A stretch of 64,000 bases of DNA from Pseudobdellovibrionaceae bacterium. GTDB lineage: Bacteria > Bdellovibrionota > Bdellovibrionia > Bdellovibrionales > UBA1609. Below are positions 1 to 42,843 of the stretch, one piece after another. A program made the translations under genes and the position numbers. A model generated the notes under the pieces. It was not told the DNA's origin, did no database searches, and saw only the letters and a list, made by a program, of their open reading frames with translations. Every line of letters starts with the position of its first letter. Positions within the stretch are counted from its first letter, which is position 1. The DNA lies in assembly GCA_947444305.1 (NCBI GenBank), contig CANEZP010000009.1, forward strand, positions 1-64,000, read 5' to 3'.

Positions 1-3000
1 CAAGGAACCGGCGCCGCGCCCGCGACGATCACCATCAGCAACGGTGCGACTTTCAATTTCGGCACGGTCGCTAACGGTTCATCGCAAGATCAATCTTTTA
101 CGCTGACGAACGACGGGGGCGTGCCCGCTTCGAGCATGACCGGTACCGGGCTTAGTGCACCGTTCTCGTTTAAGGGTGGATCGTATCCGGGCACCGGCGG
201 AACATGCGGCGCGGTCTTGAACGCGGCCGGCACGTGTACCGTCGTGGTGAACTACAATCCTTCGACGATCAACACCCACAGCGGGCAGTTCGACATCAAT
301 TACAACAACGGTTTGATCGCGCAGACTTCATCACGCGCCGTTCAGGGGACCGCGGTTGCTCCGGCCTCGTTATCATTTAGCGACGGACCGACTTACGATT
401 ACGGAATTCTCGCCACGGGCGGCTCGGCCGACAAGATCTTTACCGTCACTAACGGCGGGGCCTTCGCCGCTTCATCGATGAACGGCGCCGGTTTAGTCGC
501 TCCGTTCTCGTACAAGGGCGGATCCTATCCCGGTACCGGCGGAAATTGTGGAACGACCTTAAACGCCGCCGCGACTTGCACGGTTGTCGTGACTTACGCT
601 CCTTCATCGACAGGTGTGCAAAGCGGCACGATGACCCTGGCGTACTACGACGGCGCGAACAATCAATCGGCGACCCGCGCGGTTCAAGGAACGGGCGCGA
701 ATCCCGCGACGTTAACGATCAGCGACGGCGCGACTTATAACTTCGGAACGGTCGCGAGCGGTTCGAGCAGCGACAAATCGTTCATCGTCACGAACACCGG
801 CGGCGTGCCGGCGACGGGCGTTAGCGGTGGCGGTTTAAGCGCTCCGTATTCTTTCAAAGGCGGAACCTTCCCCGGTACGGGCGGAACGTGTACTTCGACG
901 GCGACCGCCGGCGCGACCTGTTCGATCGTCGTTACGTTTAATCCGACCACGATCGCCACGCATAGCTCACAAATCGATATCGCTTACACGAACGGCGTTA
1001 GCGCGCAGAGTGTTTCGCGTCCCGTAACCGGTACCGCCGTCGCTCCGGCCACGATCACGATTAGTGACGGTACGACGTACAACTTCGGAACACGCGCGAA
1101 CGGCTCATTGACCGACAAAACTTTTACGCTCACGAATACGGGTTCGTTCGCGGCGAGTACGGTCGGCGGTAACGGCTTGACCGCACCATATTCTTTCAAA
1201 GGCGGAGCGTACCCGGGCACCGGCGGAAATTGTGCTTCGACCATGGCGCCTTCCGCCACTTGCACGATTGTCGTAAGCTTCGCGCCGACATCGACGGGCA
1301 CGCACAACGGACAAATCGACATCAATTACAACAACGGCGTCACCGGGCAAACCAGCTCACGCGGCGTGACCGGCGTCGGCGCGCCTCCGGCCACTTTAGC
1401 GATCAGCGACGGAACGACTTTCAACTTCGGTACGAAAGCCACCGGTTCATCGACCGACAAAAGTTTCACCGTCACGAACACCGGTGGCATCGACGCGACG
1501 TCGATCACGACCGGCGGCTTGAGCGCACCTTTAACTTTCAAAGGCGGAACTTATCCCGGCTTAGGCGGAACCTGTTCGACGACGATCGCGGCTTCGGCGG
1601 CGTGTACGGTCGTCGTCACTTACGCACCGGTCGGCACGGGCGCGCATAGCGCTTCGATCGACTTCACTTACAACGACGGCGTGACCGCGACGCAAACTTC
1701 TTCGCGACCGTTAAGCGGTACGGGCGCGGCCCCCGCGACGATTACGATCAGCGACGGTACGACCTATAACTTCGGTTCGATCGCCAACGGCGGTATGGCC
1801 GACAAAACTTTCACTCTGACCAACACGGGCGGCGTCAACTCTACCGCGATGGGCGGCTCGGGCCTAGCGGCACCGTTTACGTTCAAAGGCGGATCGTATC
1901 CCGGTACCGGCGGAAGTTGCACCGGCGTCTTGAACGCCGCGGCGACGTGTACGGTTGTCGTGAATTTCGCGCCGACTTCGGCGGGCTTGCAAAGCGATAC
2001 GATGAACATCACGTACAACAACGGCGTGAGCGGTCAAACATCCTCGCGTGATCTCGACGGAACGGGCGTTGCGCCGGCCTTGCTGACGATCAGCGACGGC
2101 CCGACTTACGATTACGGTGCGGTCGTTGCGACGGCGAGCAAAGACAAAACGTTTACGGTTACGAACAGCGGCAGCCTCGCGGCGCTCACAATTGTGGGCA
2201 CCGGCATCACAGCTCCTTACACCTTCAAAGGTGGCAGCTATCCCGGTACCGGCGGAACTTGCGGCGGTACGCTGAACGCATCGATCTCATGTACCATCGT
2301 CGTAACGTTTACGCCCTCGGTGACCGGTTCATTCAACGCGACCGTCGCTCTTAATTACAACGACGGCGCGCAAAATCAGTCGGCGACCCGCGATTTGCAA
2401 GGTGCGGGCGCAACGCCGGCGAGCATTACGATCAGCGGCGGCCCAACGTACAGTTTCGGCTCGGTCGCGAACGGTTCCTCGAACGACGCGACTTTGACTT
2501 TAACGAATGGCGGCGGTGTACCGGCGACCGCGATGGCGGGCACCGGTCTTTCGGCTCCGTACACGTTCAAAGCCGGTTCTTATCCCGGCACGGGCGGAAC
2601 ATGTTTAACCACGTTGAATGCCGGCGCGACGTGCACGATCGTGGTGAACTACAATCCTTCGACGATCGCGACTCATCCCGCGACGGTTTCGATCGGGTAC
2701 CAAGACGGATTAAATACGCAGTCGGCAACGCGTAACTTGACCGGTACCGCGGTCGCGCCCGCATCGCTCACCTTGAGCGACGGTCCCACTTACGATTTCG
2801 GAACGCTGGCGACCGGCGCGGTCCTCGACAAAACTTTTACCGTCACCAATGCCGGCAGCTTCGCGGCTTCGGGTATCGGCGGCAACGGGCTAACCGCTCC
2901 GTTCACTTTTAAAGGCGGCGGCTTCCCGGGTACGGGCGGTTCGTGTACGGGAACATTGAACGCGGGCGCATCGTGTACCCTCGTAGTTCGCTGGGCGCCG

Positions 3001-6000
3001 GTTGCGACCGGCGTGCAAAGCGGTACGTTTAACGTGACCTATTTCAACGGCGCTTCAAACCAAACTTCTTCGGGCAACGTCACCGGTACCGGCGCCGCGC
3101 CAGCAACGCTGACGATCAGCGACGGAGCGACTTACAATTACGGAAGTTTCGCGACGGGCACGAACAACGATAAATCGTTTACCGTAACGAACTCGGGTGG
3201 TGTTACCGCCTTGAGCATCAGCGGTGGTGGCTTAAGCGCGCCGTACACTTTCAAAGGTGGAACTTTCCCCGGTACGGGCGGAAACTGTACCGCGACACTT
3301 TCCGCTTCGGCCGCGTGTACCATCGTCGTCACTTACTCACCGACGGTCGCCGGTACGCAAAGCAGCCAAATTGACGTGACCTACAACGACGGCGTGGCTT
3401 CGCAAACGACCAGCCGCCCCGTGACGGGAACGGCGCTCGCTCCGGCCAACATCACGATCAGCGACGGCACGACATACAACTTCGGCACGCGCGCCAATAC
3501 GTCGTCGACGGATAAGACATTCACGCTAACGAACGCCGGAAGCTTCCCCGCAACGACGATGACCGGCAACGGTTTGTCGGCGCCGTATAGTTTCAAAGGC
3601 GGATCGTATCCCGGCACGGGCGGAAATTGTTCGACGACGCTCGCGGCCTCCGCCGTTTGTACGGTCGTCGTTACCTTCAGCCCGACGGCGAGCGGAACCT
3701 ACAACGGTCAATTCGACATCGGTTACAACAACGGCGTGACCGCGCAAACTTCATCGCGCCAAGTGACCGGCGTCGGCGCGCCCGCCGCGACGTTCTCGAT
3801 CAGCGACGGAGCGACCTACACTTACGGCACACGCGCCACCGGCTCATCGACCGACAAGACCTTCACCGTTACGAATTCGGGCGGCATCGATGCGACTTCG
3901 GTGTCGGTCGCGGCGCTTTCGGCACCGTTCGCTTTCAAAGGCGGACCGTACCCAGGCACCGGCGGAACATGCACATCGACGCTGACGGCTTCGAACACTT
4001 GTACGATCGTAGTGACTTACGCACCGACCGGCACGGGTACGCAATCGGATACGATCAGCGTCACTTTCAACGACGGCGTTACCGCTTCGCAAACCAGCAC
4101 GCGCGCCTTAACGGGTACGGGCGCCGCGCCCGCGGCGATTACGATCAGCGACGGCGCGACATATAACTTCGGTACGGTCGCGAACGGCGGATCGAGCGAT
4201 AAATCATTTACGGTCAACAACACCGGCGGCGTTACCGCGACTTCGGTCGGCGGCGGCGGGCTCGCGGCTCCGTTTAATTTCAAAGGTGGATCGTTCCCCG
4301 GTACCGGCGGAAACTGCACGACGTCGCTAAACGCGGGTGCCGCATGTACGGTCGTCGTCACTTTCGCACCGACGGTTTCGGGCGTGCAAAACGATGCAAT
4401 CGACATCACTTTCAACAACGGCGTCGTCGGCGGCCAAACTTCGTCGCGCGCGGTCACCGGAACGGGCGTCGCGCCCGCGGTTCTCGATATCAGCGATTCA
4501 CCCGGTTACGATTTCGGCGCGGTCGTTGCGACGGGCAGCGCGGATAAAACTTTGACCATCACGAACAGCGGTCAACTCGTGGCTTCGAGCATCGCCGGCA
4601 CCGGTTTTAGCGCACCGTTCTCTTTCAAAGGCGGAACGTATCCCGGTTCGGGCGGAACTTGCGGTGGAACTTTGAACGGCGGTCTGTCGTGTACGGTCGT
4701 CGTCACTTTTAATCCGTCGGTCACCGGGTCATACTCGGGCTCGATGAACATCGCCTACTTCGACGGCGCTTCGAACCAAAATTCGACCCGCAGTGTACAA
4801 GGTGTCGGCGCTACGGCGGCTTCGATTACGATCAGCGACGGCGCGACATATAACTTCGGAACGGTCGCGAACGGTTCCTCACAAAATAAAACGTTCACGT
4901 TAACGAACGGCGGGGGCGTGATGGCCACGGCGATGAGCGGGAACGCTTTGACCGCGCCGTATTCATTCGTCGGCGGAACTTACCCCGGCACGGGCGGAAC
5001 TTGTTTAACCACGCTGAACGCGGCGGCAACTTGTACGGTCGTCGTGAATTACAATCCTTCGACGATCGCGACCCACAACGCAACATTGAGCATCGCTTAT
5101 ACCGACGGTCTCACCGGTCAGAACGCCACCCGCGCCGTAACCGGAACGGCCGTCGCGCCCGCATTGCTCACGATAAGCGACGGCACGACTTATGATTTCG
5201 GTACGCTCGCTACGGGCGCGACCGCCGACAAAACATTCACGATCACGAACACGGGCACGTTCACCGCCAGTGGCATGAACGGCTCGAACTTGAACGCACC
5301 TTTCACGTTCAAAGGCGGATCTTACCCAGGTCTCGGCGGTTCATGTACGGCCACGCTTAACGGAGGCAGCTCGACTTGTACGGTCGTCGTCACTTACGCG
5401 CCGACCAGCACCGGCACGCAGTCGGGCACGATGCAGATTTCGTACAGCAACGGCGCGAGCGGCCAAGTCTCTTCACGCGGCGTAACCGGAACGGGCGCGG
5501 CGCCCGCACTTCTTAATATCAGCGACGCGGGCTTCACCTACGGAACGGTTGCGAACGGTTCGAGCAACGACAAATCATTTACCGTCACCAACGCCGGTGG
5601 CGTGACCGCGACCGCGATGACCGGCGGCGGCCTGGCCGTACCGTTCAGCTTTAAAGGTGGATCGTACCCGGGCACGGGCGGTAACTGCACGACGACGCTC
5701 GCGGCTTCGACGACTTGTACGATGGTCGTTACCTTCAACTCAAGCTCGACCGGTACCTACAACGACACGATCGAATTGGATTACTTCAACGGCGCGAGCT
5801 CACAACAATCGCTGCGCGCGATTAACGGTATCTCGCAAGCACCGGCTTCGCTCACGATCAGCGACGCGGTCACTTACAATTTCGGTAACGTCGCTAACGG
5901 CGGCACGGCCGAAAAAACTTTTACGGTCACCAACGGCGGTGGTTTCGCGGCGCTGAGCATGACCGGTTCGGGTCTCGCGGCTCCGTTCACGTTCAAAGGT

Positions 6001-9000
6001 GGACCGTATCCCGGTTCAGGCGGAACTTGCGGCGGATCTTTAACCGGCGGCCAAACGTGTACCGTCGTTGTGAGTTATTCGCCGACCTCAATCGGTTCGC
6101 ATTCGAGCACGCTGACCGTTCCGTACAACGACGGCTCAAGCGCGCAAAGTGCCTCACGCCCGGTTCAGGGTGTAGGCGCGGCGCCGGCCTCGCTCACGAT
6201 TTCGGACGGCGCGACGTTTAACTTCGGAACGGTTGCGAGCGGTTCGACCAACGACAAAACTTTCACGCTGACCAACAACGGTGGCGCGATGGCCTCGACG
6301 GTTTCGGGCACCGGCTTGTCGGCTCCGTACTCTTTCAAAGGCGGATCGTTCCCGGGCACCGGCGGCACGTGTACGACTACGCTCAATCCTTCAACGAGCT
6401 GTACGTTTGTCGTTAATTACGCGCCTGGAAGTGTCGCGACTTCGAACGGTACGATCACGGTTAGCTACAACGACGGCGTGAATCCGCAATCCTCCACGCG
6501 CGCGATCACGGGTACGTCGGTGTCGGCGGCGGTCATCACGATCTCGAACGGGCCGACTTACGATTTCGGTACGATCGCGAATGGCGCAACGGCCGAGATG
6601 ACTTTCACGGTCACCAATACCGGAACGTTCACTGCAAGTTCACTCGGCGGCGCCGGCTTGATTGCACCGTTCACATTTAAGGGCGGAACTTATCCCGGTA
6701 CGGGCGGAACTTGTAATACGTCATTGAGCGGAAGCAACGCCACTTGTACCGTGATCGTAGTGTTCGCGCCCGGCACCACCGGCTCAAGTTCATCACCGCT
6801 GCAAATCGGCTACAACAACGGCGCGAGTGTGCAGCAATCGTCAATCACGGTTTCCGGCACGAGCGCCGGCCCGGCGGTGTTGACGGTGAGCGACGGCCCC
6901 GGCAATTACTCGTTCGGTACGGTCGCAACGACGACGACTAAAGACAAAGTATTTACGATCAACAATTCCGGCGGCGTAACCGCGACCGCGCTTTCGGGCG
7001 GCGGTCTTTCGCTCCCGTTCCGTTTCAAAGGCGGAACATTCCCGGGTACGGGCGGATCATGTTTGACGACCCTCGGCGCCGGCTTAAATTGTACGGTCGT
7101 CGTGAATTACGCTCCGACCGCGAACGTGACTTCGACGCAAACGATGAGCATCGGTTACACCGACGGCGTCACCACGCAGAGCGCGACCCGCGGCGTGACC
7201 GGTACGGGCGCTGCGCCCGCATCGCTAACCAGCAATCCGACGAGCTACAGCTTCGGCAGCCAGCCCGTCGGCGCGGTTGCGGAAACGACCTTCTCGATCA
7301 CCAACGGTGCGGCGACGATTTCCGCCACTTCGGTCGTGATGAACGGCTTGAACAACGGCTTCGCGTTCAAAGGCGGATCATTCCCCGGTACGGGCGGAAA
7401 CTGCGGGACGACGATCACGGCCGGCTTGTCGTGTAACGTCGTCCTCACTTACACGCCGAGTGGTTCGGGTACGCAAAGTAGCGCGCTCAACATTTCATAT
7501 AACGACGGCGCCGCGACCCAGAGCTTCTCGGTCAGCGTGGACGGGGTTGCGACTTCGGCCGCGTTGCTGACGATCTCTGACGGCACGACGTTCTCCTACG
7601 GAACGGTTGCGCAAGGTTCGACGAACGACAAAACGTTTACGATCACCAACTCGGGCGGGGTTCCCGCAACGACGCTCGCACCCGCCTCGTTTAGCGCACC
7701 GTATTCATTCAAAGGCGGATCGTATCCCGGTACGGGCGGAACGTGTACGACGGTTCTCGGCGCGAGTCCCTCGAACGTTTGTACGGTCGTCGTCACTTAC
7801 GCACCCACCACGATCGCGACGCACAACGCGACTTTGACGTTGAATTACAACGACGGTCTCGCCGCGGCTTCGGCCACGCGCGCGATCACGGGTACGGGCG
7901 CGGCGCCGGCTTTGCTCACGATCAGCGACGGCCCGACTTACGATTTCGGTTCGGGTAACTATACGAACATCGTTTATACGAAAATGTTTACGGTCACGGC
8001 GAGTGGTTCGTTCACCGCGACCAGCATGGCCGGCGGCAGCACATTGACCACGCCGTTCGCATTCAAAGCCGGTTCGTATCCCGGCACGGGCGGAAACTGT
8101 ACGACTTCGTTAGCCACAGGCGGAACTTGCACGATCGCGGTCACTTACTCGCCGACTTCGGCCGGTACGGATTCTTCGACCGTAACGTTGAACTACAACA
8201 ACGCCGCGATGAGCACGACCACGACCCGCGCGGTCGTCGGCTCGGCGCTTCTGTCGATCGCACCGGCCCCGCCCGCGGCGCCGACTCTTTCGATCACCGC
8301 GTTCTCTTCCGTCAACGTAGCGTTCACCGTTCCCGCGAGCGGCACGCAGCCGATGTCTTATAAGATTTTGAAATCGACGACGACCGGTACGGGTTTCACG
8401 CAGGTCGGTGTTGATTACAGTTCGACCGACACGCTGACCTACGTCGACGCCGCCGTCACCGCGGGTACGATTTATTACTACAAAATCCGTGCGACCGGTC
8501 CCGGCGGAACGTCGGACTCGGCCGAATCAACGGTTGTCCCGATGGGCTCGTTCAGCATTTCGAGCGTCGGTACCGGCGATCGTTCATTACTCGTCGCGTG
8601 GACCGCTTCGGCCGGCGCGACGAACTACACCGTTCGTTACGGCACGGTTAGCGGTTCGTGGCCGACCGTCGCGACCACCGTGGCTACCGGAACCGGCTAT
8701 ACAATCACCGGCTTGACCGCGGGCACGACTTACTACGTAAACGTTTACGCCACCAATGCCAAAGGCTCGGTCGTGAATGCTTCGGGCGAATATCCCGGCG
8801 TGCCCAAAGCGGTGCCGGTGAATTTCGCCAAAGCGGCACGCGCCGACTCAATGTGTTCAAGCTTATCGAACGGTATGCTCAAGTGCTGGGGCCGCGCGGC
8901 TTTCGGTATGTTGGGTAACGGTTCCGAAGTCGCGGTCGGGGACGATCCGGATGAAGTCGGCGATTTCGCGCAGCCCGCGCTCCTCGGTGCCGGTCGTACG

Positions 9001-11373
9001 GCGTCGAAAGTTTTCGCCTCGACCTCGGGTAACAATCCGGCGGCCGTATCGCACTGGTGCGCAATCTTAGACAACGGCAAAGTAAAATGCTGGGGTCTAA
9101 ACAACTTCGGTCAACTCGGCTACGGCGACACCATCGTTCGTGGTGACCAAGTTTCTAACTCGGGCGACAACTTACCTAACGTCGATCTCGGGACGGGACG
9201 TACGGCCGTTAAACTCGCCTTGGGCGGTAACCACACTTGCGCGTTACTTGATAACGGTAAAGTTAGATGTTGGGGCGCGAACAGCAATGGTCAGCTCGGC
9301 CAGGATGCCGCAACGACGCTTCACCGTGGTGATGGTCCGAACGAAATGGGCGATAACCTCAACTACTCAATCACGCCCGGTAACAGCAACGTCAGTGATA
9401 TCACCGCGGGTAACAACTTTACTTGCGTCATCTTGACCTCCGACGCCAGCGTTCGTTGCTGGGGCCGACAAGACAACAACACCGGTCAATTGGGTAACGC
9501 GAGCTTGAACAATACAAACTGGGGTACGACCGGCGGACACGGCGCCTCGACTCCGGCAGTGTTGCTCGGCACGGGCCGCACGGCGACCGCGATCGCCGCG
9601 AGCTACACTTCGGTCTGCGCGATCTTAGATAACGGACAATTGAAATGTTGGGGCCGTAACGATGCCGGCCAGCTCGGCACGGACAATACGGCAGCCATCG
9701 GTTATAACGGTAATGCGCTCACCAACACCACGCCGATGACCAACTTAGGCTCGGGCCGCACGGCCATCAAAATCGCGGGCGGTTGGCTGAACTTCTGCGC
9801 CATCCTCGACGACAACACGGCGAAGTGTTGGGGTGACGGAACGAGCGGAGCCAATGGTCAAGGGACAACCACGAATTGGGGATCGAACGCAACGACTCTA
9901 AGCATGGCGAATTTGCCGGCGATCTCTTTGAGCACGACCGGTGCGGTACCGACGTCGATCTCGATCGGTAAACAGAACGCGTGCGTTACCTTGAATAACA
10001 ACACGGCCAAGTGTTGGGGCGCGAACGCCAACGGGCAGGCCGCGTTCGGGGATGCGACCAATACGAACGTGAACTTCGGTGATACCGGCGGCGAAATGGG
10101 CGCGGCCCTCGTCGCGATCAACCTCGGTGCGAGCACGACGATCAAAGCGATCGCGGCCGGTGTCGACTCGATGTGCGCGATCCGTAACGATGATAAACTC
10201 TTCTGCTTCGGTGATAACCGTTTCGGCCGCGCGTTGCTCGGTCAACCGGCGCACACCGGTGACGATGCGGATGAGATGGGTCAATTCAATATCGCCGTCG
10301 AGCTCGGCACCGGTTTAACCGCGGTCAAATCGACGATGGGCTTGCAGCACGCTTGCGCGATCTTGAATACCGGGCAGGTGAAATGTTGGGGCCGTAACAA
10401 CGTCGGTCAATTGGGTCAAGGCAACACGACGAACATCAATAGCCAAACGCAAATGGGCGATGCCCTTCCGTTCGTCGATCTAGGCACGGGCCGTACCGCG
10501 AAAGATATCGCGGCCGGCAATTACCACACGTGCGCGGTCTTGGATAACGACACCGCACGCTGCTGGGGTTTCAACAACTTTGGCCAGCTCGGAAACCAAG
10601 GTACGATCACCCGCGGAAACTTGCCCAACCAAATGGGTAACAACATGACCCCGATCGATTTCGCGGGTTTGACCGTGAAGTCCGTCGGCGCGGGATCCGA
10701 ATTTAGCTGCGCCATCTTGAGCGACAATTCAATCCGTTGTTGGGGCCGTAACGCCAACGGACAGTTAGGTAAAGGCGATACGACCACGCGCGGAAATACT
10801 TCGGGCGTGAACGGTATGGGCGCAAATTTAACGGCGATCAACGTCGGCGCGGGCCGCACCGTTTCGCAAATGTCGGTGAACGAACAATCCGTGTGCGCGA
10901 TCTTAGACGACGCGACCGTAAAATGTTGGGGCTTGAACAACAACGGTCAAGCGGGCGTGGATAGTACGACTTCGGTTCTCACGCCTTCGGCCACGCCCAT
11001 CAACTTGGGCGCGGGTCGCACGGCGCTGAAGATCGCGGCCGGAACAAATCACGCCTGCGCGATCCTCGATAATGGAACTTGGAAGTGTTGGGGCGCCGCG
11101 GGTAACGGTCGTCTAGGAAACGGAACCAATACGCCTAACCGCGGAACGGGTACGAACACGATGGCCGGCATGGTGGTTTCGCCCAACCCGACTGGACTAA
11201 CGGCCAAAGATATCACGGCGAACAACCAGAACACCTGCGTGTTGTTTAGCGATGATCAGATCCGCTGCGTCGGTGTCGGTCAGTACGGACTGATGGGCCA
11301 AGGCACGACTCAAGACTGGGGTGATGCGGCCGCACGCTCGGGCGATAACTTAGTCGTCGCGCCGCTTTGGTAA
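1..11373 (+). CDS. Giant repeat surface protein (partial, 5' end outside window): 24 Ig-like repeats, two Fn3, 14 RCC1-type repeats
   Basis: The frame is open from the first base, so the N-terminus (and any signal peptide) lies upstream; 3790 residues are visible. From base 19 to about 8250 there are 24 copies of a ~114-residue repeat with a choice-of-anchor-D/ASPM-like beta-sandwich look: PA.LTISDG.TY.FGT, then DK.FT.TN.G, then FKGG.YPGTGG.C and TCTVVV. Each copy has two cysteines 10-12 residues apart. About 8265-8810 reads as two fibronectin type III domains (YYYKIRATGPGG; GTTYYVNVYATN). The C-terminal third is 14 RCC1-type propeller repeats (C-AILDNG-KVKCWG-N-GQLG). It ends in Trp with no LPXTG, autotransporter barrel or membrane segment. 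Most likely a secreted or surface-displayed fibre/adhesin with a propeller tip. A DsbA-like lipoprotein and a MotAB-type operon follow on the same strand. The function is inferred from architecture only. Confidence 0.93.
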   Translation, partial: QGTGAAPATITISNGATFNFGTVANGSSQDQSFTLTNDGGVPASSMTGTGLSAPFSFKGGSYPGTGGTCGAVLNAAGTCTVVVNYNPSTINTHSGQFDINYNNGLIAQTSSRAVQGTAVAPASLSFSDGPTYDYGILATGGSADKIFTVTNGGAFAASSMNGAGLVAPFSYKGGSYPGTGGNCGTTLNAAATCTVVVTYAPSSTGVQSGTMTLAYYDGANNQSATRAVQGTGANPATLTISDGATYNFGTVASGSSSDKSFIVTNTGGVPATGVSGGGLSAPYSFKGGTFPGTGGTCTSTATAGATCSIVVTFNPTTIATHSSQIDIAYTNGVSAQSVSRPVTGTAVAPATITISDGTTYNFGTRANGSLTDKTFTLTNTGSFAASTVGGNGLTAPYSFKGGAYPGTGGNCASTMAPSATCTIVVSFAPTSTGTHNGQIDINYNNGVTGQTSSRGVTGVGAPPATLAISDGTTFNFGTKATGSSTDKSFTVTNTGGIDATSITTGGLSAPLTFKGGTYPGLGGTCSTTIAASAACTVVVTYAPVGTGAHSASIDFTYNDGVTATQTSSRPLSGTGAAPATITISDGTTYNFGSIANGGMADKTFTLTNTGGVNSTAMGGSGLAAPFTFKGGSYPGTGGSCTGVLNAAATCTVVVNFAPTSAGLQSDTMNITYNNGVSGQTSSRDLDGTGVAPALLTISDGPTYDYGAVVATASKDKTFTVTNSGSLAALTIVGTGITAPYTFKGGSYPGTGGTCGGTLNASISCTIVVTFTPSVTGSFNATVALNYNDGAQNQSATRDLQGAGATPASITISGGPTYSFGSVANGSSNDATLTLTNGGGVPATAMAGTGLSAPYTFKAGSYPGTGGTCLTTLNAGATCTIVVNYNPSTIATHPATVSIGYQDGLNTQSATRNLTGTAVAPASLTLSDGPTYDFGTLATGAVLDKTFTVTNAGSFAASGIGGNGLTAPFTFKGGGFPGTGGSCTGTLNAGASCTLVVRWAPVATGVQSGTFNVTYFNGASNQTSSGNVTGTGAAPATLTISDGATYNYGSFATGTNNDKSFTVTNSGGVTALSISGGGLSAPYTFKGGTFPGTGGNCTATLSASAACTIVVTYSPTVAGTQSSQIDVTYNDGVASQTTSRPVTGTALAPANITISDGTTYNFGTRANTSSTDKTFTLTNAGSFPATTMTGNGLSAPYSFKGGSYPGTGGNCSTTLAASAVCTVVVTFSPTASGTYNGQFDIGYNNGVTAQTSSRQVTGVGAPAATFSISDGATYTYGTRATGSSTDKTFTVTNSGGIDATSVSVAALSAPFAFKGGPYPGTGGTCTSTLTASNTCTIVVTYAPTGTGTQSDTISVTFNDGVTASQTSTRALTGTGAAPAAITISDGATYNFGTVANGGSSDKSFTVNNTGGVTATSVGGGGLAAPFNFKGGSFPGTGGNCTTSLNAGAACTVVVTFAPTVSGVQNDAIDITFNNGVVGGQTSSRAVTGTGVAPAVLDISDSPGYDFGAVVATGSADKTLTITNSGQLVASSIAGTGFSAPFSFKGGTYPGSGGTCGGTLNGGLSCTVVVTFNPSVTGSYSGSMNIAYFDGASNQNSTRSVQGVGATAASITISDGATYNFGTVANGSSQNKTFTLTNGGGVMATAMSGNALTAPYSFVGGTYPGTGGTCLTTLNAAATCTVVVNYNPSTIATHNATLSIAYTDGLTGQNATRAVTGTAVAPALLTISDGTTYDFGTLATGATADKTFTITNTGTFTASGMNGSNLNAPFTFKGGSYPGLGGSCTATLNGGSSTCTVVVTYAPTSTGTQSGTMQISYSNGASGQVSSRGVTGTGAAPALLNISDAGFTYGTVANGSSNDKSFTVTNAGGVTATAMTGGGLAVPFSFKGGSYPGTGGNCTTTLAASTTCTMVVTFNSSSTGTYNDTIELDYFNGASSQQSLRAINGISQAPASLTISDAVTYNFGNVANGGTAEKTFTVTNGGGFAALSMTGSGLAAPFTFKGGPYPGSGGTCGGSLTGGQTCTVVVSYSPTSIGSHSSTLTVPYNDGSSAQSASRPVQGVGAAPASLTISDGATFNFGTVASGSTNDKTFTLTNNGGAMASTVSGTGLSAPYSFKGGSFPGTGGTCTTTLNPSTSCTFVVNYAPGSVATSNGTITVSYNDGVNPQSSTRAITGTSVSAAVITISNGPTYDFGTIANGATAEMTFTVTNTGTFTASSLGGAGLIAPFTFKGGTYPGTGGTCNTSLSGSNATCTVIVVFAPGTTGSSSSPLQIGYNNGASVQQSSITVSGTSAGPAVLTVSDGPGNYSFGTVATTTTKDKVFTINNSGGVTATALSGGGLSLPFRFKGGTFPGTGGSCLTTLGAGLNCTVVVNYAPTANVTSTQTMSIGYTDGVTTQSATRGVTGTGAAPASLTSNPTSYSFGSQPVGAVAETTFSITNGAATISATSVVMNGLNNGFAFKGGSFPGTGGNCGTTITAGLSCNVVLTYTPSGSGTQSSALNISYNDGAATQSFSVSVDGVATSAALLTISDGTTFSYGTVAQGSTNDKTFTITNSGGVPATTLAPASFSAPYSFKGGSYPGTGGTCTTVLGASPSNVCTVVVTYAPTTIATHNATLTLNYNDGLAAASATRAITGTGAAPALLTISDGPTYDFGSGNYTNIVYTKMFTVTASGSFTATSMAGGSTLTTPFAFKAGSYPGTGGNCTTSLATGGTCTIAVTYSPTSAGTDSSTVTLNYNNAAMSTTTTRAVVGSALLSIAPAPPAAPTLSITAFSSVNVAFTVPASGTQPMSYKILKSTTTGTGFTQVGVDYSSTDTLTYVDAAVTAGTIYYYKIRATGPGGTSDSAESTVVPMGSFSISSVGTGDRSLLVAWTASAGATNYTVRYGTVSGSWPTVATTVATGTGYTITGLTAGTTYYVNVYATNAKGSVVNASGEYPGVPKAVPVNFAKAARADSMCSSLSNGMLKCWGRAAFGMLGNGSEVAVGDDPDEVGDFAQPALLGAGRTASKVFASTSGNNPAAVSHWCAILDNGKVKCWGLNNFGQLGYGDTIVRGDQVSNSGDNLPNVDLGTGRTAVKLALGGNHTCALLDNGKVRCWGANSNGQLGQDAATTLHRGDGPNEMGDNLNYSITPGNSNVSDITAGNNFTCVILTSDASVRCWGRQDNNTGQLGNASLNNTNWGTTGGHGASTPAVLLGTGRTATAIAASYTSVCAILDNGQLKCWGRNDAGQLGTDNTAAIGYNGNALTNTTPMTNLGSGRTAIKIAGGWLNFCAILDDNTAKCWGDGTSGANGQGTTTNWGSNATTLSMANLPAISLSTTGAVPTSISIGKQNACVTLNNNTAKCWGANANGQAAFGDATNTNVNFGDTGGEMGAALVAINLGASTTIKAIAAGVDSMCAIRNDDKLFCFGDNRFGRALLGQPAHTGDDADEMGQFNIAVELGTGLTAVKSTMGLQHACAILNTGQVKCWGRNNVGQLGQGNTTNINSQTQMGDALPFVDLGTGRTAKDIAAGNYHTCAVLDNDTARCWGFNNFGQLGNQGTITRGNLPNQMGNNMTPIDFAGLTVKSVGAGSEFSCAILSDNSIRCWGRNANGQLGKGDTTTRGNTSGVNGMGANLTAINVGAGRTVSQMSVNEQSVCAILDDATVKCWGLNNNGQAGVDSTTSVLTPSATPINLGAGRTALKIAAGTNHACAILDNGTWKCWGAAGNGRLGNGTNTPNRGTGTNTMAGMVVSPNPTGLTAKDITANNQNTCVLFSDDQIRCVGVGQYGLMGQGTTQDWGDAAARSGDNLVVAPLW
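19..8250 (+). repeat. 24 tandem ~342-bp repeats with higher-order periodicity
   Basis: Coding tandem repeats, each ~342 bp (114 codons), diverged at DNA level but with recurring blocks around the GGTACCGGCGG stretch encoding P-G-T-G-G. Copies 1, 8 and 15 share N-P-S-T-I-x-T-H and end in G-T-A-V-A-P-A; the G-T-A-V-A codons start at 346, 2743 and 5143, so seven repeats (799-800 codons) form a super-unit. After copy 15 related copies recur every four repeats (copies 15, 19, 23). The array therefore grew by block duplication. Confidence 0.9.
8850..11310 (+). repeat. 14 RCC1-type repeats inside the giant protein
   Basis: Fourteen copies of a 50-65-residue unit whose core is C-x9-C followed by W-G-x-N-x-x-G-Q-L-G (one copy is C-F-G, the last C-V-G). 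RCC1 domains form seven-bladed propellers, so 14 units fit two propellers in series. The paired cysteines in every blade are unusual compared with eukaryotic RCC1 and would suit an extracytoplasmic, disulfide-stapled domain (inference). Confidence 0.85.
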
Positions 11374-11385
11374 GGTTGACCTTCG

Positions 11386-11414
11386 CTCACTCTATCTAGA
11401 AAATAGTTAGTGAG
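11386..11414 (+). promoter_or_regulatory. Hairpin covering the ribosome-binding site of the DsbA-like lipoprotein gene
   Basis: CTCACT-CTAT (11386-11395) pairs with ATAG (11403-11406) and AGTGAG (11409-11414), with a 7-nt loop and a 2-nt bulge. The right arm overlaps the GAGG ribosome-binding site of the gene starting at 11422. This could limit translation of the downstream gene or be an RNA-processing site in a long message. Seen in sequence; the regulatory role is inferred. Confidence 0.4.
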
Positions 11415-11421
11415 GTTCAAC

Positions 11422-12807
11422 ATGATAAATAAAATCGTTTTCATCACCGCCGCCGTTCTATTCATCACCGCTTGCGAAAACAAACCGCAAGGTTTCGGTT
11501 TGGAAGACTCGCCGATTCGCTACAAAACCCAAGCCTTCGAAGAACCGGATACCCTTGCCGAAGCCAACGGCCAGAAATTCACTAAAGGGCAAATCTTAGA
11601 TAAGTCGCCCGTGCTCAAAGATTTAGATGGCCAAGAAAACGAAACCCTCATCGGCTTGGCTTACTTAAAAATCGTTGAGCGCCTAGGCGATGCGAAGCCG
11701 CTCGGCACGGCCGAAATGCATTTAGCCGAGACCAAAACACCACTTTCCGAAATTCTTAACCGATTCGACGCCAAACCCACGCCGGGATTGAACATCGTTT
11801 TTAAAACCGGCGGACCCGAGGGCATGGCCGCGCAATATAAAGACATCAAGGTTATGCGCGACGAATTGGATACTAACCACGTCGTTATGCAAAATATTGA
11901 GCAACGCAGATACCGCGAAACCGCTTCTCAGTTGAACGGCCAAGTGGCGCGCATTTTGGTGAGTGAGACGGCCGCTAAGCGCAAACAGGATATGCAGTCC
12001 TTCCTCGAAAAAGAAGTATTTAAAGGAAACTCCGGCGCGGTTACCGACCAAGAATTGTTCACGTACCTTGATTCGATCGGCTTCGCACGGTCTGAACTTA
12101 CGGAGGAGATCAAACCTCGCTTTTTGGACGCTTTGAAAATGCGCAAGCAACAGCAAATGATCGAAGAGTACGTCGCGAAAGAAATTCTCAAAGGGCCGAT
12201 GCTCGTGTCGTTTACCGAACCGCAAACGAAGCTGAAATTGAACGAGAACTGGCGCCCGGTTGCCGGGTATAGCGACGCCCCGGTCGCGATCGTGGCCTTC
12301 AGCGGGATAACCTGCGCCGACTGCAAACCGTTCATCGATCACCTCGTAAAGGTCATGGACAAATACAAAGGACATTTGAAACTAAATTGGATCCACAACT
12401 TCAACGCCGACGACGGTGTCGCGCGCTTGATGGCGGAAGCAGCCCTTTGCGTCGATTCGCTCAAAGCAGGCAAGGCCGTTGATTTTATGAACGCGTTCGC
12501 TAAAGAGGGTAGCGCGGTCGACGAAAAAGGTTTTTACGGCTGGGCCGACAAGAACAAAGTGGATTCGGCAAAACTGAAAACCTGTTTAGGTAATTCGGGT
12601 AAAGACGGCGAGTCACTCGTCGAACAACATCGTGATTACGCTAAGCGGGTAGGTATCGTCGCGAATCCGACCATTTGGGTTGAAGGCAGCACCTTGCAAG
12701 GTTCGATCAGCAATGATCAACTCGATAAGCTCATTTCTAACTCGATCAAAACCAAAGGCTCGAGCCAACTGGCCGCCTACTGGCGTCGTTTTAAAGGCTT
12801 GTTCTAG
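11422..12807 (+). CDS. Lipoprotein with C-terminal DsbA-like thioredoxin domain (CADC)
   Basis: 461 residues. ATG 11422 is chosen over GTG 11410 because GAGG lies six bases upstream and the peptide then opens M-I-N-K-I-V with lipobox I-T-A-C (lipid Cys 18). Residues ~45-270 are helical and charged; the start (EANGQKFTKGQIL) resembles SurA/PpiC-type N-terminal regions, without a visible isomerase domain. From ~280 the chain has a DsbA/DsbG-type thioredoxin fold: APVAIVAFSGITC, active site C298-A-D-C301, and a cis-Pro loop V-A-N-P-T. Expected role: periplasmic thiol-disulfide oxidation or isomerisation, membrane-anchored. It lies 48 bp behind the giant protein, whose repeats carry dozens of paired cysteines, so that protein is the obvious candidate substrate (inference). 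A terminator follows at 12815. Confidence 0.85.
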   Translation: MINKIVFITAAVLFITACENKPQGFGLEDSPIRYKTQAFEEPDTLAEANGQKFTKGQILDKSPVLKDLDGQENETLIGLAYLKIVERLGDAKPLGTAEMHLAETKTPLSEILNRFDAKPTPGLNIVFKTGGPEGMAAQYKDIKVMRDELDTNHVVMQNIEQRRYRETASQLNGQVARILVSETAAKRKQDMQSFLEKEVFKGNSGAVTDQELFTYLDSIGFARSELTEEIKPRFLDALKMRKQQQMIEEYVAKEILKGPMLVSFTEPQTKLKLNENWRPVAGYSDAPVAIVAFSGITCADCKPFIDHLVKVMDKYKGHLKLNWIHNFNADDGVARLMAEAALCVDSLKAGKAVDFMNAFAKEGSAVDEKGFYGWADKNKVDSAKLKTCLGNSGKDGESLVEQHRDYAKRVGIVANPTIWVEGSTLQGSISNDQLDKLISNSIKTKGSSQLAAYWRRFKGLF

Positions 12808-12814
12808 CCCAATG

Positions 12815-12837
12815 CCCGGCGACCAACGTCGGGTTTT
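12815..12837 (+). terminator. Rho-independent terminator after the DsbA-like lipoprotein gene
   Basis: CCCGGCG (12815-12821), loop ACCAA, CGTCGGG (12827-12833) with one G-U pair, followed by TTTT. It sits eight bases after the lipoprotein stop codon and separates that gene from the motor operon starting at 12908, so the two are probably separate or partly separate transcription units. Confidence 0.65.
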
Positions 12838-12907
12838 GCTTCCGTAATCTACAAAACGTAAAGATTCCCCCTGCTTACGTCGAACAGACATACAGGAGAA
12901 ATCTTCT

Positions 12908-13480
12908 ATGTTGCGAAAATTATTGCTGTTAACAAGTTTAGTTTACTTAAACGTAGCCGGCGCGGACGAAGTTAAATTCGTTTTTGATCAAGCTGTCGAA
13001 GTTTCGCAACCGTCATCCGAAGGTTTGACCGACCGGCAGAACGTTGCGGCCGGTGCCGATTTCAAATTCGCGCTCGACAAAGTCTACTGGGTACAGGCGA
13101 AGGGTAAAGTTCCGCTCTTAGTCTTACCGCAAGTAAGTTCGGGTAAGGCCGAAGCGTTGCGCGTGCAAATGCCGGACGTAGCGAATTGGCCCTCGGCGGT
13201 CGTGCAGCAAGAGCTCGACAATAAATTGAGCCAGTTGGTAACCGACCTTACGCAATTTCAAGAAGCACTCCGTAAAAAGAACACCGGCGATGCCGAACGC
13301 GCGTTGGCCCGCATGGAACAGATCGGCCGTTTAGATTACTTGCACTTCTTGCGCGCCACTTTGAAGTTCGTCCAAGGCGATTTCGAAGCGGCGAAAGAGT
13401 CCACCAAATTAGGATTGCAGCGTCACCCCGCGAATGAAGAAGGCATCAAATTCTTGCAACGCCTGGAAGGTAAAAAATGA
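12908..13480 (+). CDS. Exported TPR-like helical protein, first gene of motor operon
   Basis: 190 residues with an N-terminal signal peptide (MLRKLLLLTSLVYLNVAGADE) and an AGGAGA ribosome-binding site. After a beta-rich N-terminal half, residues ~110-188 form helices of TPR character (ERALARMEQIGRLDYLHFLRATLKFVQGD; AAKESTKLGLQRHP), a likely protein-protein contact surface. No enzyme motif is visible and I do not recognise a named family. Its stop overlaps the next start (13477), so it is translationally coupled to the MotA-like gene and probably acts in the periplasm as a partner of the motor. Confidence 0.8.
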   Translation: MLRKLLLLTSLVYLNVAGADEVKFVFDQAVEVSQPSSEGLTDRQNVAAGADFKFALDKVYWVQAKGKVPLLVLPQVSSGKAEALRVQMPDVANWPSAVVQQELDNKLSQLVTDLTQFQEALRKKNTGDAERALARMEQIGRLDYLHFLRATLKFVQGDFEAAKESTKLGLQRHPANEEGIKFLQRLEGKK

Positions 13481-14187
13481 TCAGCTTACCCATTGGCTTA
13501 GTTTTCTTTTTCGTGGTTCTGGTCATCTCGGCCGGTAACGTTAAATTATCCGATTACATGAACATGCACTCGGTCGTTATCGTCTTCGCGGGCTCGCTCG
13601 CGGTCTTGTTGATCGGTACCGCAAACCCGATCATCATGGCTTTGTGGCACAACGTCGTTTCGATGTTCAAACGCCGCGCAAGTTTAGCCGACGTTCACGA
13701 CCAGTTATTAAAGCTCGGCGCCAACCGCGCATCGGTTACGGAATCGAAAGATCCGTTGATCCGTTACGCGATCTCGCTATGGGAACGCGGCGTGGACGCG
13801 AATTCGTTTCAAGCATTATTGTCGCAGCACCGCGATCAGCTCGAAGAGCAAGATGCGGAAGCCATTAGCGCGCTCCATAACCTGAACAAATATCCGCCTG
13901 CACTCGGGATGATGGGAACGGTCATGGGGATGATCTCGCTGTTCTCCCACCTTGGTGAATCGGATAAGTCGGCACTCGGTCCGTCTTTGGCGACCGCGAT
14001 GACGGCAACTTTCTACGGGTTGTTGGCTTCGAACGCCGTTCTAAGCCCGTTGGCCGACCGCATGACTTTAGAAGCCATGCACCGCAAGAAATACTACAAC
14101 GCCGTATACGAAATGATCACGCTCATCAATCGCCGCGAACCTATGAATTTGATCGAAGAGGAGCTGACGAATCGTGAAGCCGCCTAA
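13477..14187 (+). CDS. MotA-like stator/proton-channel subunit
   Basis: 236 residues. Four membrane segments (about 3-22, 33-55, 140-158, 170-192) with a charged cytoplasmic loop between 2 and 3 (R-Y-A-I-S-L-W-E-R). Segment 3 carries the MotA hallmark Y-P-P-A-L-G-M-M-G-T-V-M-G with Pro140/Pro141, and segment 4 reads A-T-A-M-T-A-T-F-Y-G-L-L-A-S-N, matching the flagellar MotA consensus. MotA subunits form the pentamer around two MotB subunits and convert ion flow into torque. The start overlaps the upstream stop by four bases and the end overlaps the MotB-like gene by 14. Unlike canonical motA, no flagellar structural genes surround it; its rotor partner may be the product of 14851-16347. Confidence 0.93.
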   Translation: MISLPIGLVFFFVVLVISAGNVKLSDYMNMHSVVIVFAGSLAVLLIGTANPIIMALWHNVVSMFKRRASLADVHDQLLKLGANRASVTESKDPLIRYAISLWERGVDANSFQALLSQHRDQLEEQDAEAISALHNLNKYPPALGMMGTVMGMISLFSHLGESDKSALGPSLATAMTATFYGLLASNAVLSPLADRMTLEAMHRKKYYNAVYEMITLINRREPMNLIEEELTNREAA

Positions 14188-14854
14188 GGATTTGCGACCC
14201 CTTACGGACATAAGGGTCACCAGAAAGACCGGCGTTGAGGCATCCCACGGGGGCGGCCACGGCTGGGCCGTATCTTACGCCGATCTACTGATGGTCTTGC
14301 TGTCATTCTTCGTTATGTATTTTAGCTTCGCCGAAGAGAACCCCAATACGGTCGACAATCAATTGCAGCGTATCGCTTTGTCGATGAAGGGCATCTCGCC
14401 GGAACAGATCAACGCCAGGATGAAAGAGAAAGACTCGGCCGAAATGTCGAGCCTTGCCGACGCGATGAAATTGGCCGGCATCAAAGTGACCCAGAAGGAA
14501 GATCACCTGGTCATGGAGTTGACGGAAGAATACAAACCGGCCGATTACCGCTTGAACAAACCGCTGAGCAAACAAATGGATGTGGTTTTGGAAGCTCTGA
14601 AACCCTACCACAATAAAGTGAATATCACGATCATCGGGCACGCCGACGCTAAAAAGCTCGCGCCGAGAAATGAATTCCTGCAGGACAACTTTGACCTATC
14701 CTCGATCCGCGCATTGCGCGCTTTGAAGTACGCCATCAACACCGGTTATCCCGAAAAATTTGCATCGGCTCGCGCCGCTTCTTACTTTGACCGGGATGCC
14801 CGGTCGCTAAGTGTTGAAGTCCGATTGAGCGCTAAGCCCGGAGGATCCACATGA
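14174..14854 (+). CDS. MotB-like stator subunit with OmpA-type peptidoglycan-binding domain
   Basis: 226 residues from GTG 14174 inside the motA-like gene. A short cytoplasmic N-terminus with a Gly/His-rich stretch precedes one membrane segment, W-A-V-S-Y-A-D37-L-L-M-V-L-L-S-F-F; Asp37 sits where the ion-carrying Asp of MotB is expected. The C-terminal half is an OmpA/MotB peptidoglycan-binding fold (I-I-G-H-A-D-A-K; F-D-L-S-S-I-R-A, keeping the Asp and Arg that bind diaminopimelate in this family). Expected to anchor the stator to the cell wall. It overlaps the next gene by four bases (ATGA), a sign of coupled translation. The pairing with the MotA-like gene is clear; what the motor drives is not. 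Confidence 0.92.
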   Translation: MKPPKDLRPLTDIRVTRKTGVEASHGGGHGWAVSYADLLMVLLSFFVMYFSFAEENPNTVDNQLQRIALSMKGISPEQINARMKEKDSAEMSSLADAMKLAGIKVTQKEDHLVMELTEEYKPADYRLNKPLSKQMDVVLEALKPYHNKVNITIIGHADAKKLAPRNEFLQDNFDLSSIRALRALKYAINTGYPEKFASARAASYFDRDARSLSVEVRLSAKPGGST

Positions 14855-16347
14855 GAATCTTAATATTCATCTGCCTAAGCTTACTTTGCGTAAGCGCCAC
14901 GGCGGCCCAGCCTATTCTAGAGCTGGAAAATCAGATGCAACAGCGGGTAACGGCGATCCTCCAGCGCGCGGACCCACTCGCGATCGTGCAAGTGCAAATC
15001 AAACCGCGCAAAGTCAGCGCCGATCTACCGATGTTCGGAATGACCGCGCAGGTAACGCCCGTCAATTTCGACGGACAAATCTCGTCGGCCACGATCGAGA
15101 GCATGAAGGTTCGCGTAATCAGCCAGTTGGAGACGATCCCCGAGTGGATTAAAACCGAAATCGTTCGCACAACGGAAGTCAGCGGCGTAAAAGTTGAAAT
15201 CAATTACGAAAAGGCGGGCGGTCAGCTCACCAACGAGAATCAAGAATTAGCTAAGATCGCGAAAGATACGAGCGAAGTAGCGATCACCAGTTTGAATCAA
15301 ATGAAGTTAGGCGTATGGGGCATCATCATCGCGCTGACTTTGAGTTTATTCGTGGTCGCTTGGACCGTGTTCTCGATGGCTAAACGTATGGAAACTTCTC
15401 TCGGCCGCGTGGTCGAAGAAAAAGTTGTCCCCGCGATGCAAGCCAACGCCGGCAACGGCGGGGGCGGCCGGTCTTCTAAATCCGAAGAGTCCGGGGATCA
15501 GCCTCGTGCGCAAGCGGCCCAGGCCGCGGCGGCCACGGGCGGGACGGGCGGTAAAGAGCTCGCCGAATTTCCGATCTCCACCCTGATGAGTCTGTTTAGC
15601 GATTGCTACTGGGCCGAGACCGACGGCTACGCTAATTACCTGTGGCAGCAGACTTCACAAAAGCAAAAGCAAGAATTGCTCGCTTCAGACTTCACCGATC
15701 CCGCTTACTTCGCGTTCGTTCGCCAAGCGGCGCCGGTAAACTTGGAATACCATCAAGATCCGCGCTATCTCAACGCGGCCACCGACTTCGCGCACGTCAA
15801 CCAAACCGAGTTGGCCGCGTGGCTCAATAAAAATCCGAAGCAATTCAGCCGCATCACGCCGCTGCGTTGGGATTTGTTGCCGCTCTCGCTCGAACAACGC
15901 ATTCAGTTCGGCGATATGAAAGCGGACGCAAAACTCGAAGCCGTAAGCGTTACGACTAAAAGTAAACCGCGTGAACTTAAAGCTCGCTTAGAGATTAAAC
16001 AGCTCCGTCCCGAAGACGAGCAGTACATCTGGGACAACGCCGCGAAGATTCCCGCGCACGTTCGTCCTTCGCTACGCTCGCTCGTTTGGCTTGCGCTCGC
16101 ACCGGTCGACGCTCGCCGCAACGCTTTGGGCGAACTTGATGCGCGCCAGCTCGCCGAAGCCTGGACTGGACCCGAAGCCGTTTTAAATTCGCTCAAAGAA
16201 GCTTTGCCGGCGAAGAAACTCGAGATGCTCGAACACTTCCTTAAGGACACAAGTCCCGGACGTGGCAACGACACATTTGCTTACCTGTGTGATTCTGGAT
16301 TACGATTATACGTAGATCCAATTTCAACACGGGCAGAAGCAGCTTGA
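14851..16347 (+). CDS. FliF-like membrane segment fused to a FliG-like cytoplasmic domain (putative rotor)
   Basis: 498 residues. Signal peptide (1-19), then a ~110-residue periplasmic domain beginning E-L-E-N-Q-M-Q-Q-R-V-T-A-I-L and ending V-K-V-E-I-N-Y-E, like the ring-building/C-terminal part of FliF. One membrane segment follows (153-177), then a Gly/Ala/Ser linker, then ~270 helical residues. Parts recall FliG: STLMSLFSDCYWAETDGYAN...L-W-Q-Q-T as the middle domain, and ALGELDARQLAEAW...L-P-A-K-K-L-E-M-L-E-H-F-L as the C-terminal torque domain. In flagella FliF and FliG are separate proteins forming the MS ring and rotor. Here one chain next to MotAB could supply a minimal rotor. The assignment rests on layout and weak motif likeness by eye; a structure comparison is needed. 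Confidence 0.6.
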   Translation: MRILIFICLSLLCVSATAAQPILELENQMQQRVTAILQRADPLAIVQVQIKPRKVSADLPMFGMTAQVTPVNFDGQISSATIESMKVRVISQLETIPEWIKTEIVRTTEVSGVKVEINYEKAGGQLTNENQELAKIAKDTSEVAITSLNQMKLGVWGIIIALTLSLFVVAWTVFSMAKRMETSLGRVVEEKVVPAMQANAGNGGGGRSSKSEESGDQPRAQAAQAAAATGGTGGKELAEFPISTLMSLFSDCYWAETDGYANYLWQQTSQKQKQELLASDFTDPAYFAFVRQAAPVNLEYHQDPRYLNAATDFAHVNQTELAAWLNKNPKQFSRITPLRWDLLPLSLEQRIQFGDMKADAKLEAVSVTTKSKPRELKARLEIKQLRPEDEQYIWDNAAKIPAHVRPSLRSLVWLALAPVDARRNALGELDARQLAEAWTGPEAVLNSLKEALPAKKLEMLEHFLKDTSPGRGNDTFAYLCDSGLRLYVDPISTRAEAA

Positions 16348-16979
16348 ATTTAGTCGCCTCCATTTTTGCTTTTCTTATTTTAGCCGCTACCGTGCCCGCA
16401 GTCTGGGCACAGGACAACGCCGTCGATCAGCCTGCTACGGCCGGCACCTCCGATTATAAAGTAAAATTAGATACCAAAGAGAGCCGGCTGCTGTTCGGTC
16501 TCTACGGTCAGATGTCGAACTTCACCCGGCAGGGCGCGGCTCTCATGGGCTACAATCTCGAAGGTCTAGCCGATTACGCGATCCGCGACAAAACTGCCGT
16601 CCAGATTTCACTCAACCAATCTCTGAGCATGGCGGGCGGTATCAGCGTTTTGTTCACGGGCTTAAGGCTAGGTGCGGCCCACGCTTGGTGGGGCGAGTTC
16701 ACGCAACGCTCTTCTTTATTGGAAGTAAACAGCCAAGACACGCTGGCCGTGCGCCCTAACGAAAGCACGATGTTCGTTACGGACGTAGGTATTGAGCAAT
16801 ATTTATTCAACGGCACCGACCGAATCGTTCCCGCCACCGGACTCTCGTTAGGTGGGCGCATGGACAAAACCATCTGGGGTATGCGCCTTTCGGCCATGCT
16901 CCGTTACGGTTCACTCGTCATCTCCGCGGACCCGGTCACCATGATCACCGCGGGCGTAGGCACCGTCATTCGTTTTTAG
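16344..16979 (+). CDS. Small outer-membrane barrel protein, last gene of motor operon
   Basis: 211 residues. TTG 16344 overlaps the preceding TGA stop and gives a clear signal peptide (F-A-F-L-I-L-A-A-T-V-P-A-V-W-A-Q). The mature part alternates polar and hydrophobic residues (LFGLYGQMSNFTRQG; GMRLSAMLRYGSLVI) and ends in Phe (G-T-V-I-R-F), typical of BAM-inserted outer-membrane beta-barrels. No family recognised. Tight coupling to the MotA/MotB/FliG-like genes suggests it is the outer-membrane part of the same apparatus (inference). Followed by a short direct repeat and no convincing terminator. Confidence 0.75.
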   Translation: MNLVASIFAFLILAATVPAVWAQDNAVDQPATAGTSDYKVKLDTKESRLLFGLYGQMSNFTRQGAALMGYNLEGLADYAIRDKTAVQISLNQSLSMAGGISVLFTGLRLGAAHAWWGEFTQRSSLLEVNSQDTLAVRPNESTMFVTDVGIEQYLFNGTDRIVPATGLSLGGRMDKTIWGMRLSAMLRYGSLVISADPVTMITAGVGTVIRF

Positions 16980-41046: not shown

Positions 41047-41116
41047 TTCAGGCTGTTAAGTCGCCTCGCAAGAGCTCCGATAGGTGTACGGGTGTGTTTA
41101 TCGTTCTGGGGGATCG

Positions 41117-42823: not shown

Positions 42824-42843
42824 GAAAGAGAACGGGTGAAGTT

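Follow-up and report, generated by a model that had tools for sequence, protein, structure and literature searches.

A compact set of genes in Pseudobdellovibrionaceae bacterium, encoding a MotA/MotB stator pair, a rotor-like protein in which FliF- and FliG-like domains are fused, a periplasmic TPR protein and a small outer-membrane beta-barrel, stands next to the gene of a giant surface lipoprotein, and it recurs in other genomes of the Bdellovibrionota, often beside large lipoproteins with a common N-terminal tag. The evidence leans modestly towards a rotor-stator motor that is driven by protons, works independently of the flagellum and acts on exchangeable giant surface adhesins.

The DNA analysed, referred to as the window, is a stretch of 64,000 nucleotides that begins at the start of contig C9 (G000:C9:1) of a genome of 4.17 Mb in 29 contigs. 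A first-pass annotation, made from sequence alone, had described in it a block of seven genes and read the block as a possible non-flagellar, adhesin-linked motor. All seven reading frames, with their coordinates and overlaps, were confirmed by an ORF check (Table 1); the last five genes, from 12908 to 16979, overlap by 4, 14, 4 and 4 bases. Also upheld, by Pfam and fold comparisons, were the DsbA-like, MotA, MotB, barrel and TPR identities, and the FliF/FliG-like call held for FliG by sequence and fold and drew support for FliF from fold. The giant protein does exceed the 3790 residues then given, with the correction that what was seen is the 3' part of a larger gene; because window and contig start at the same position, this gene is truncated by the contig end and not by the window alone. 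A scan of 28 window proteins detected no flagellar gene, in agreement with what had been stated for FliM/FliN, rod, hook, filament and export genes; flagellar FliG and FliF are encoded on contig C11 of the same genome and FliM on contig C10.

Table 1. Features of the gene block at the start of the window
Feature	Position in window	Strand	Remarks
Giant surface lipoprotein, 3' part	1..11373	+	3790 aa, open at window edge
DsbA-like (Thioredoxin_4) lipoprotein	11410..12807	+	Thioredoxin_4 match with CxxC; active-site motif CADC
Periplasmic TPR protein	12908..13480	+	N-terminal beta-rich part, C-terminal TPR-like helices
MotA-type stator subunit	13477..14187	+	MotA_ExbB 2.4e-18; cytoplasmic (torque) loop shortened
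MotB-type stator subunit	14174..14854	+	MotB_plug 3.6e-9 and OmpA; TM helix with channel Asp D37
Fused FliF/FliG-like, rotor-like protein	14851..16347	+	Signal peptide, RBM3-like domain, TM helix, linker, FliG M/C-like domain
FliF RBM3-like domain of fused protein (kinship likely)	14893..15225	+	VIA-align against 6sd1: Z 8.9, rmsd 2.8 Å, 88 residues
FliG-like domain of fused protein	15565..16326	+	Foldseek best match 1lkv; 8ucs Z 8.2 on residues 409-492
8-stranded outer-membrane beta-barrel	16344..16979	+	TTG start; 4-base overlap with rotor gene

A terminator-like hairpin lies after dsbA, at 12814-12834, so that the giant and dsbA on the one hand and the motor genes on the other may be separate transcripts; such sites are no commoner than by chance. 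Just 3' of the set, at 17065-18834, a 589-aa exported protein with a weak Peptidase_M76-type match is encoded, which was not recognised at other copies. Elsewhere in the window (41084-46088, +) there is a second motor-like set, consisting of a 579-aa coiled-coil protein with a weak ZorB/Pal-type end, a 310-aa ZorA-like MotA/ExbB protein (1.9e-11) and a 770-aa FHA protein matching the gliding protein GltG (4.5e-8); in G099 (L229) a similar cluster of FHA, MotA-like and 579-aa proteins is found near a tag-bearing lipoprotein of 1027 aa.

The fused protein is composed of a signal peptide, a periplasmic domain (residues ~15-125), a TM helix (~155-178), a linker and a cytoplasmic domain (~239-492). 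The last, helical and of about 250 residues, is homologous to FliG, as established by Pfam, by HMM ranking controlled with decoys and by fold. The window protein alone retrieved nothing in Pfam, NCBIfam or PDB sequence searches; Pfam FliG_C is matched by four of 31 orthologues (best 1.5e-7), no other family being matched by more than two, and in whole-genome searches the FliG_C cut-off is exceeded by two genes belonging to the set (G158, 34 bits; G139, 23.5 bits). When 628 sequences including reversed decoys were ranked with an HMM of the cytoplasmic domain, flagellar FliG occupied 22 of the top 25 places. Confidence in the AlphaFold model, built from a 3-sequence alignment, is low as a whole (pLDDT 57) and good only at residues ~385-485; the best PDB match of the model in Foldseek is a FliG structure (prob 1.00, E 2.6e-3), and VIA-align places it on FliG MC 3ajc (Z 8.8) and on FliG as bound to MotAB in 8ucs (80 residues, 3.1 Å). 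Alignment by hhalign with flagellar FliG and FliF of the same genomes brought the right regions together with probabilities of just a few per cent, and weight was therefore placed on Pfam, the decoy-controlled ranking and the folds. The FliM-binding EHPQ motif (EHPQR, in the middle domain) is present in none of 32 fused proteins, as against 24 of 25 flagellar FliGs from the same genomes.

The periplasmic domain, of about 110 residues, has the order helix-strand-strand-helix-strand, with an LPG loop in most members. Its kinship with FliF RBM3 is likely and rests on fold and topology, namely the superposition of residues 15-125 on the Salmonella FliF RBM3/collar (Table 1); the sequence match is marginal, FliF filling the first nine ranks of the periplasmic-profile HMM at E values of only ~0.05-0.1. 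A profile extended with the TM helix was discarded, as reversed decoys scored with it. Since the RBM fold is common and unrelated proteins such as OsmC also reach Z ~8, the link to FliF leans on fold together with position, before a TM helix and in fusion with FliG. RBM1, RBM2 and the first TM helix of FliF are absent, the signal peptide being followed by a single RBM-like domain.

The stator proteins are of the MotA and MotB type, with the channel Asp conserved in all 29 MotB copies scanned; MotB also has a plug and an OmpA-type peptidoglycan-binding domain. This identity is shown; ion-driven rotation, which in this family takes place in a 5:2 complex, is inferred from it. In a tree, MotA groups with MotA-type stators and stands apart, at 100/100, from five proteins of its own genome that resemble TolQ/ExbB; no AglR reference was included, and it remains unresolved whether the MotAs of the set form one clade apart from flagellar MotA. 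Their cytoplasmic loop is shorter than that of flagellar MotA, and of the E. coli contact residues R90 and E98 (PMC12505986) a basic residue near the position of R90 is found in most, while the part of the loop in which E98 would be expected is missing (the equivalence is our reading of the alignment). The best structural matches of the barrel are NspA, OmpX, Ail, OmpA and OmpW (prob 1.00), and the TPR protein is a lipoprotein in some genomes.

With the window protein as a single query, relatives of the fused protein were found in 16 of the 141 genomes of the order, the other 125 being without; an alignment query matched 31 of the 369 genomes of the phylum Bdellovibrionota, of which G180 and G182 were discarded, their match being confined to the region around the TM helix, and 29 were kept. 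In a scan of contigs the fused protein of the window as sole query found no relative, and a scan with an alignment of closer members named two carriers only, Bdellovibrionaceae bacterium ACE_BDE5 and Bdellovibrio sp. MAG_58. Among plasmids there was no relative of the fused protein, and MotA matched distant stators only. Homologues of the TPR protein, MotA, MotB and the barrel surround the fused gene in the 29 genomes, so the block is not a chance arrangement. It occurs either as a single operon or with motAB divergent from tpr-fused-barrel (L047, L050, L051, L052), and in more than one copy in G054, G309 and G280; the exceptions, L096-L098 from one genus, have the fused gene without adjacent MotAB. 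The barrel is present at nearly all copies where the extent of the contig permits. The set is found in many families, but its distribution is patchy and most genomes of the phylum are without it. All 29 set-bearing genomes also have flagellar FliG, and 28 have FliF; flagellar genes are absent from most loci of the set, and flagellin genes flank it in L090, L091 and L095. Most set-bearing genomes also encode extra FliG_C proteins of ~150, ~220-280 and ~620-790 aa (e.g., G000:C15:30202-30504), the role of which is unknown.

The genomic linkage of giant lipoproteins to the set, and the tag they share, are shown. At 20 of 35 loci a protein of at least 900 aa is encoded no more than two genes away from the set, and contig ends cut many of the other loci; L052, L090, L091 and L100 are well covered and have no giant nearby. 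By mechanically called ORFs, 22 of 113 genes within two genes of the set encode at least 900 aa, as against 2 of 210 further out (Fisher p = 3e-9). Although the bodies of the lipoproteins differ, a short tag follows the lipidated Cys (e.g., CGSSSGQIDDLFG): within about 10 residues they carry [hydrophobic]-D-x-[LAFV]-[FLV] or a close variant, more fully [hydrophobic]-D-x-[L/A/F/V]-[F/L/V]-[G/D/N]. Of 22 large or truncated lipoproteins next to the set, 20 have this tag, compared with 2 of 16 other lipoproteins. The tag was defined post hoc, except for the N-termini of the window giant (CSGGSSTVDKFVG), G040 (CSAGSDSVDKLIG), G078 (CSKGSNAVDEFFG) and G099 (CKEDSSIDDAFSG), which were obtained later and fit it; that of G116 (CLKKGSDFSFVEG) fits poorly. 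None of six lipoproteins from other loci, taken as a control, carries the tag, a sample too small to weigh. The linkage also holds from the side of the adhesin, for when the N-terminal 165 residues of the giant were searched against the order, seven genomes gave strong matches (E < 1e-9). Six of them carry the set (p = 5e-6, or 4e-5 if the query genome is excluded), and in the seventh, G116, the search led to a divergent but complete set not recognised before. There the match, a 1021-aa lipoprotein, is directly followed by TPR (6e-9), MotA and MotB, then by a 553-aa protein whose two ends both match the fused-protein profile (1.2e-9) and by a small exported protein rich in beta structure. In G040 the giant has the barrel gene immediately upstream of its 5' end.

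The first-pass annotation had proposed that its reading would be refuted if the MotA/MotB homologues served the normal flagellum and the giant and barrel genes were not conserved neighbours. Gene positions speak against both, the flagellar FliG, FliF and FliM genes being on other contigs and both the giant and the barrel recurring beside the set. The reading is largely supported; rotation, a moving adhesin and gliding remain inference, and the flagellin genes flanking the set in three genomes call for caution against "entirely non-flagellar".

In the giant of the window the 3790-aa part contains more than 20 choice_anch_D/ASH Ig-like repeats and fn3 domains, followed by an RCC1-type beta-propeller tip, and is rich in cysteine (76 Cys). 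Its 5' part is a 4496-aa frame (L193:6512-20000) that is still open where contig C3 ends, with choice_anch_D repeats ~50-69% identical to those on C9; at its N-terminus a lipoprotein signal (LVG-C) precedes the tag, C-SGGSSTVDKFVG. The C3-C9 join is inferred, and probably correct; the joined giant would have at least ~8,290 residues, a size above 8,000 being plausible because in G040 the orthologue runs uninterrupted over 6816 aa. The break in the assembly falls within this giant repeat gene, and repeat frames of 8825 and 10123 codons were seen in G098 and G074. Other copies of the set adjoin proteins whose length is 900-2,800 aa or more and which contain invasin_D3/Big_1, choice_anch_D, fn3, NHL, LamG and fibrinogen-C domains, and the giants are not orthologous between lineages. 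Three loci have a giant with 2% Cys or more, and only there is the DsbA-like gene found; it is thus likely a folding helper rather than a part of the motor, and its product probably forms disulfides in the Cys-rich giant. Small proteins, lipidated or membrane-anchored, that by eye resemble folding helpers of the SurA/PrsA type adjoin the set in L086 (5051-5554), L102 (2255-3262) and L042 (11855-12817), and may perhaps replace DsbA.

In the mechanism proposed, the fused FliF-RBM3/TM/FliG protein would form a ring driven by MotA/MotB stators anchored to peptidoglycan, and a single chain would do the work of both the MS-ring and the FliG ring of the flagellum. Ion flow through MotAB would turn this ring, whose periplasmic side would act on giant surface lipoproteins by way of the TPR protein and the small barrel. 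The lipoproteins would dock through the short tag after the Cys; the contact partner of the tag is unknown. The stalks of the adhesins (choice_anch_D or invasin_D3/Big_1) would be exchangeable, as would their tips (RCC1/NHL propellers, LamG lectin, fibrinogen-C), and the predicted output is movement or tension of surface adhesins leading to attachment, gliding or prey handling. Because the set has no FliM/FliN-like switch, chemotactic reversal of the flagellar type is not expected, which is again an inference. Ring formation, the proton as the ion, torque, physical docking and the role in gliding or adhesion are all inferred, and no experiment supports them as yet.

Other explanations may be considered. 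It is possible, though less likely, that the ion-driven complex provides the energy for transporting or displaying the giant across the outer membrane, much as the T9SS is powered by GldLM/PorLM, the adhesin being static afterwards. Each locus has one giant lipoprotein as the apparent client, the N-terminal tag resembles a sorting signal, and the DsbA-like protein, or in L086 and L102 another small lipoprotein, may be a folding helper beside the set. Against export, the sole part in the outer membrane is a barrel of 8 strands, through which no protein could pass; the set has no secretin, large translocon or ATPase, and a FliG-type torque domain is not known in secretion motors. A role as a flagellar accessory, providing extra stators, a sheath or a brake, with the FliG-like protein as an auxiliary rotor ring, is improbable. 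In its favour are the flagellar FliG and FliF of the set-bearing genomes, the flagellin genes beside three copies and the MotA/MotB type of the stators; however, most genomes of the order are without the set (125 of 141), the fused protein has its own TM helix and periplasmic domain and no EHPQ motif, most loci have no flagellar genes, and the set is linked to giant adhesins.

That the MotAB-FliG-like set is real but the giants lie nearby by accident, in variable regions, is hardly tenable: the giants are indeed non-orthologous between lineages and missing at some loci, yet this is outweighed by the Fisher test, the common tag and the recovery of the G116 set from the giant N-terminus alone. 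An envelope or defence motor resembling Tol-Pal or Zorya is very improbable. MotB gave weak ZorB matches in PADLOC (9e-7), but these are generic to MotB/OmpA and the defence reading was rejected; there is no ZorA match and there are no neighbours of the ZorC/D/E type, MotA scores best with flagellar MotA models, and either reading leaves the linkage to adhesins unexplained. A rotor-stator motor acting on adhesins remains the preferred reading.

No system with the composition of the set was found in the open-access literature searched, by comparison with the flagellum, GldLM-SprB, Agl-Glt and Zorya, and the set is probably undescribed. It would resemble Bacteroidota gliding and the T9SS in outline, an ion-driven motor being combined with a giant repeat surface adhesin (SprB has ~6,500 aa; PMC13104615). 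It differs from GldLM-SprB in its MotAB/FliG-type motor, its lipoprotein adhesins and the lack of T9SS genes; no GldL/GldM-type motor is seen, the stator proteins of the set matching the MotA and MotB_plug/OmpA models. With Agl-Glt of Myxococcus it would share an ion-driven motor acting on a surface adhesin across the periplasm and outer membrane (PMC13104615), but AglRS group with transporters of the TolQR/ExbBD type (PMC12505986), no protein of the set matches the Glt families, and the Agl-Glt machinery is not known to have a FliG-type rotor.

The closest likeness is to the flagellar motor, in MotA/MotB with channel Asp, plug and peptidoglycan-binding domain and in the FliF RBM3-like and FliG M/C-like domains. 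Unlike in the flagellum, RBM3, TM helix and FliG are joined in a single protein with a signal peptide and no FliM-binding motif, FliM/FliN, rod, hook, filament and export genes are lacking, and the set is joined to a TPR protein, a barrel and a giant lipoprotein. As far as is known, FliG and FliF are treated as specific to the flagellum. A bolder reading, for which the doubts at present slightly outweigh the support, is that the FliF-FliG fusion as rotor, MotAB as stator and the tag-bearing adhesins as load constitute a missing gliding or adhesion motor of the Bdellovibrionota. If true, a flagellar rotor-stator pair would be able to work outside any flagellum, and a conserved set of MotAB and a FliF/FliG fusion doing another job would bear on the origin or re-use of the flagellar motor. 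Concrete candidate genes are supplied in those members that carry the set, though most genomes of the phylum do not. In B. bacteriovorus HD100 three motAB pairs reportedly serve a single flagellum (PMC11323537 with its reference 41), and a survey of the MotAB stator superfamily (mBio 2025, PMC12505986) assigns units of the MotA/MotB type to flagella; the MotA of the set falls with this type, yet it is partnered by a rotor-like protein outside the flagellum.
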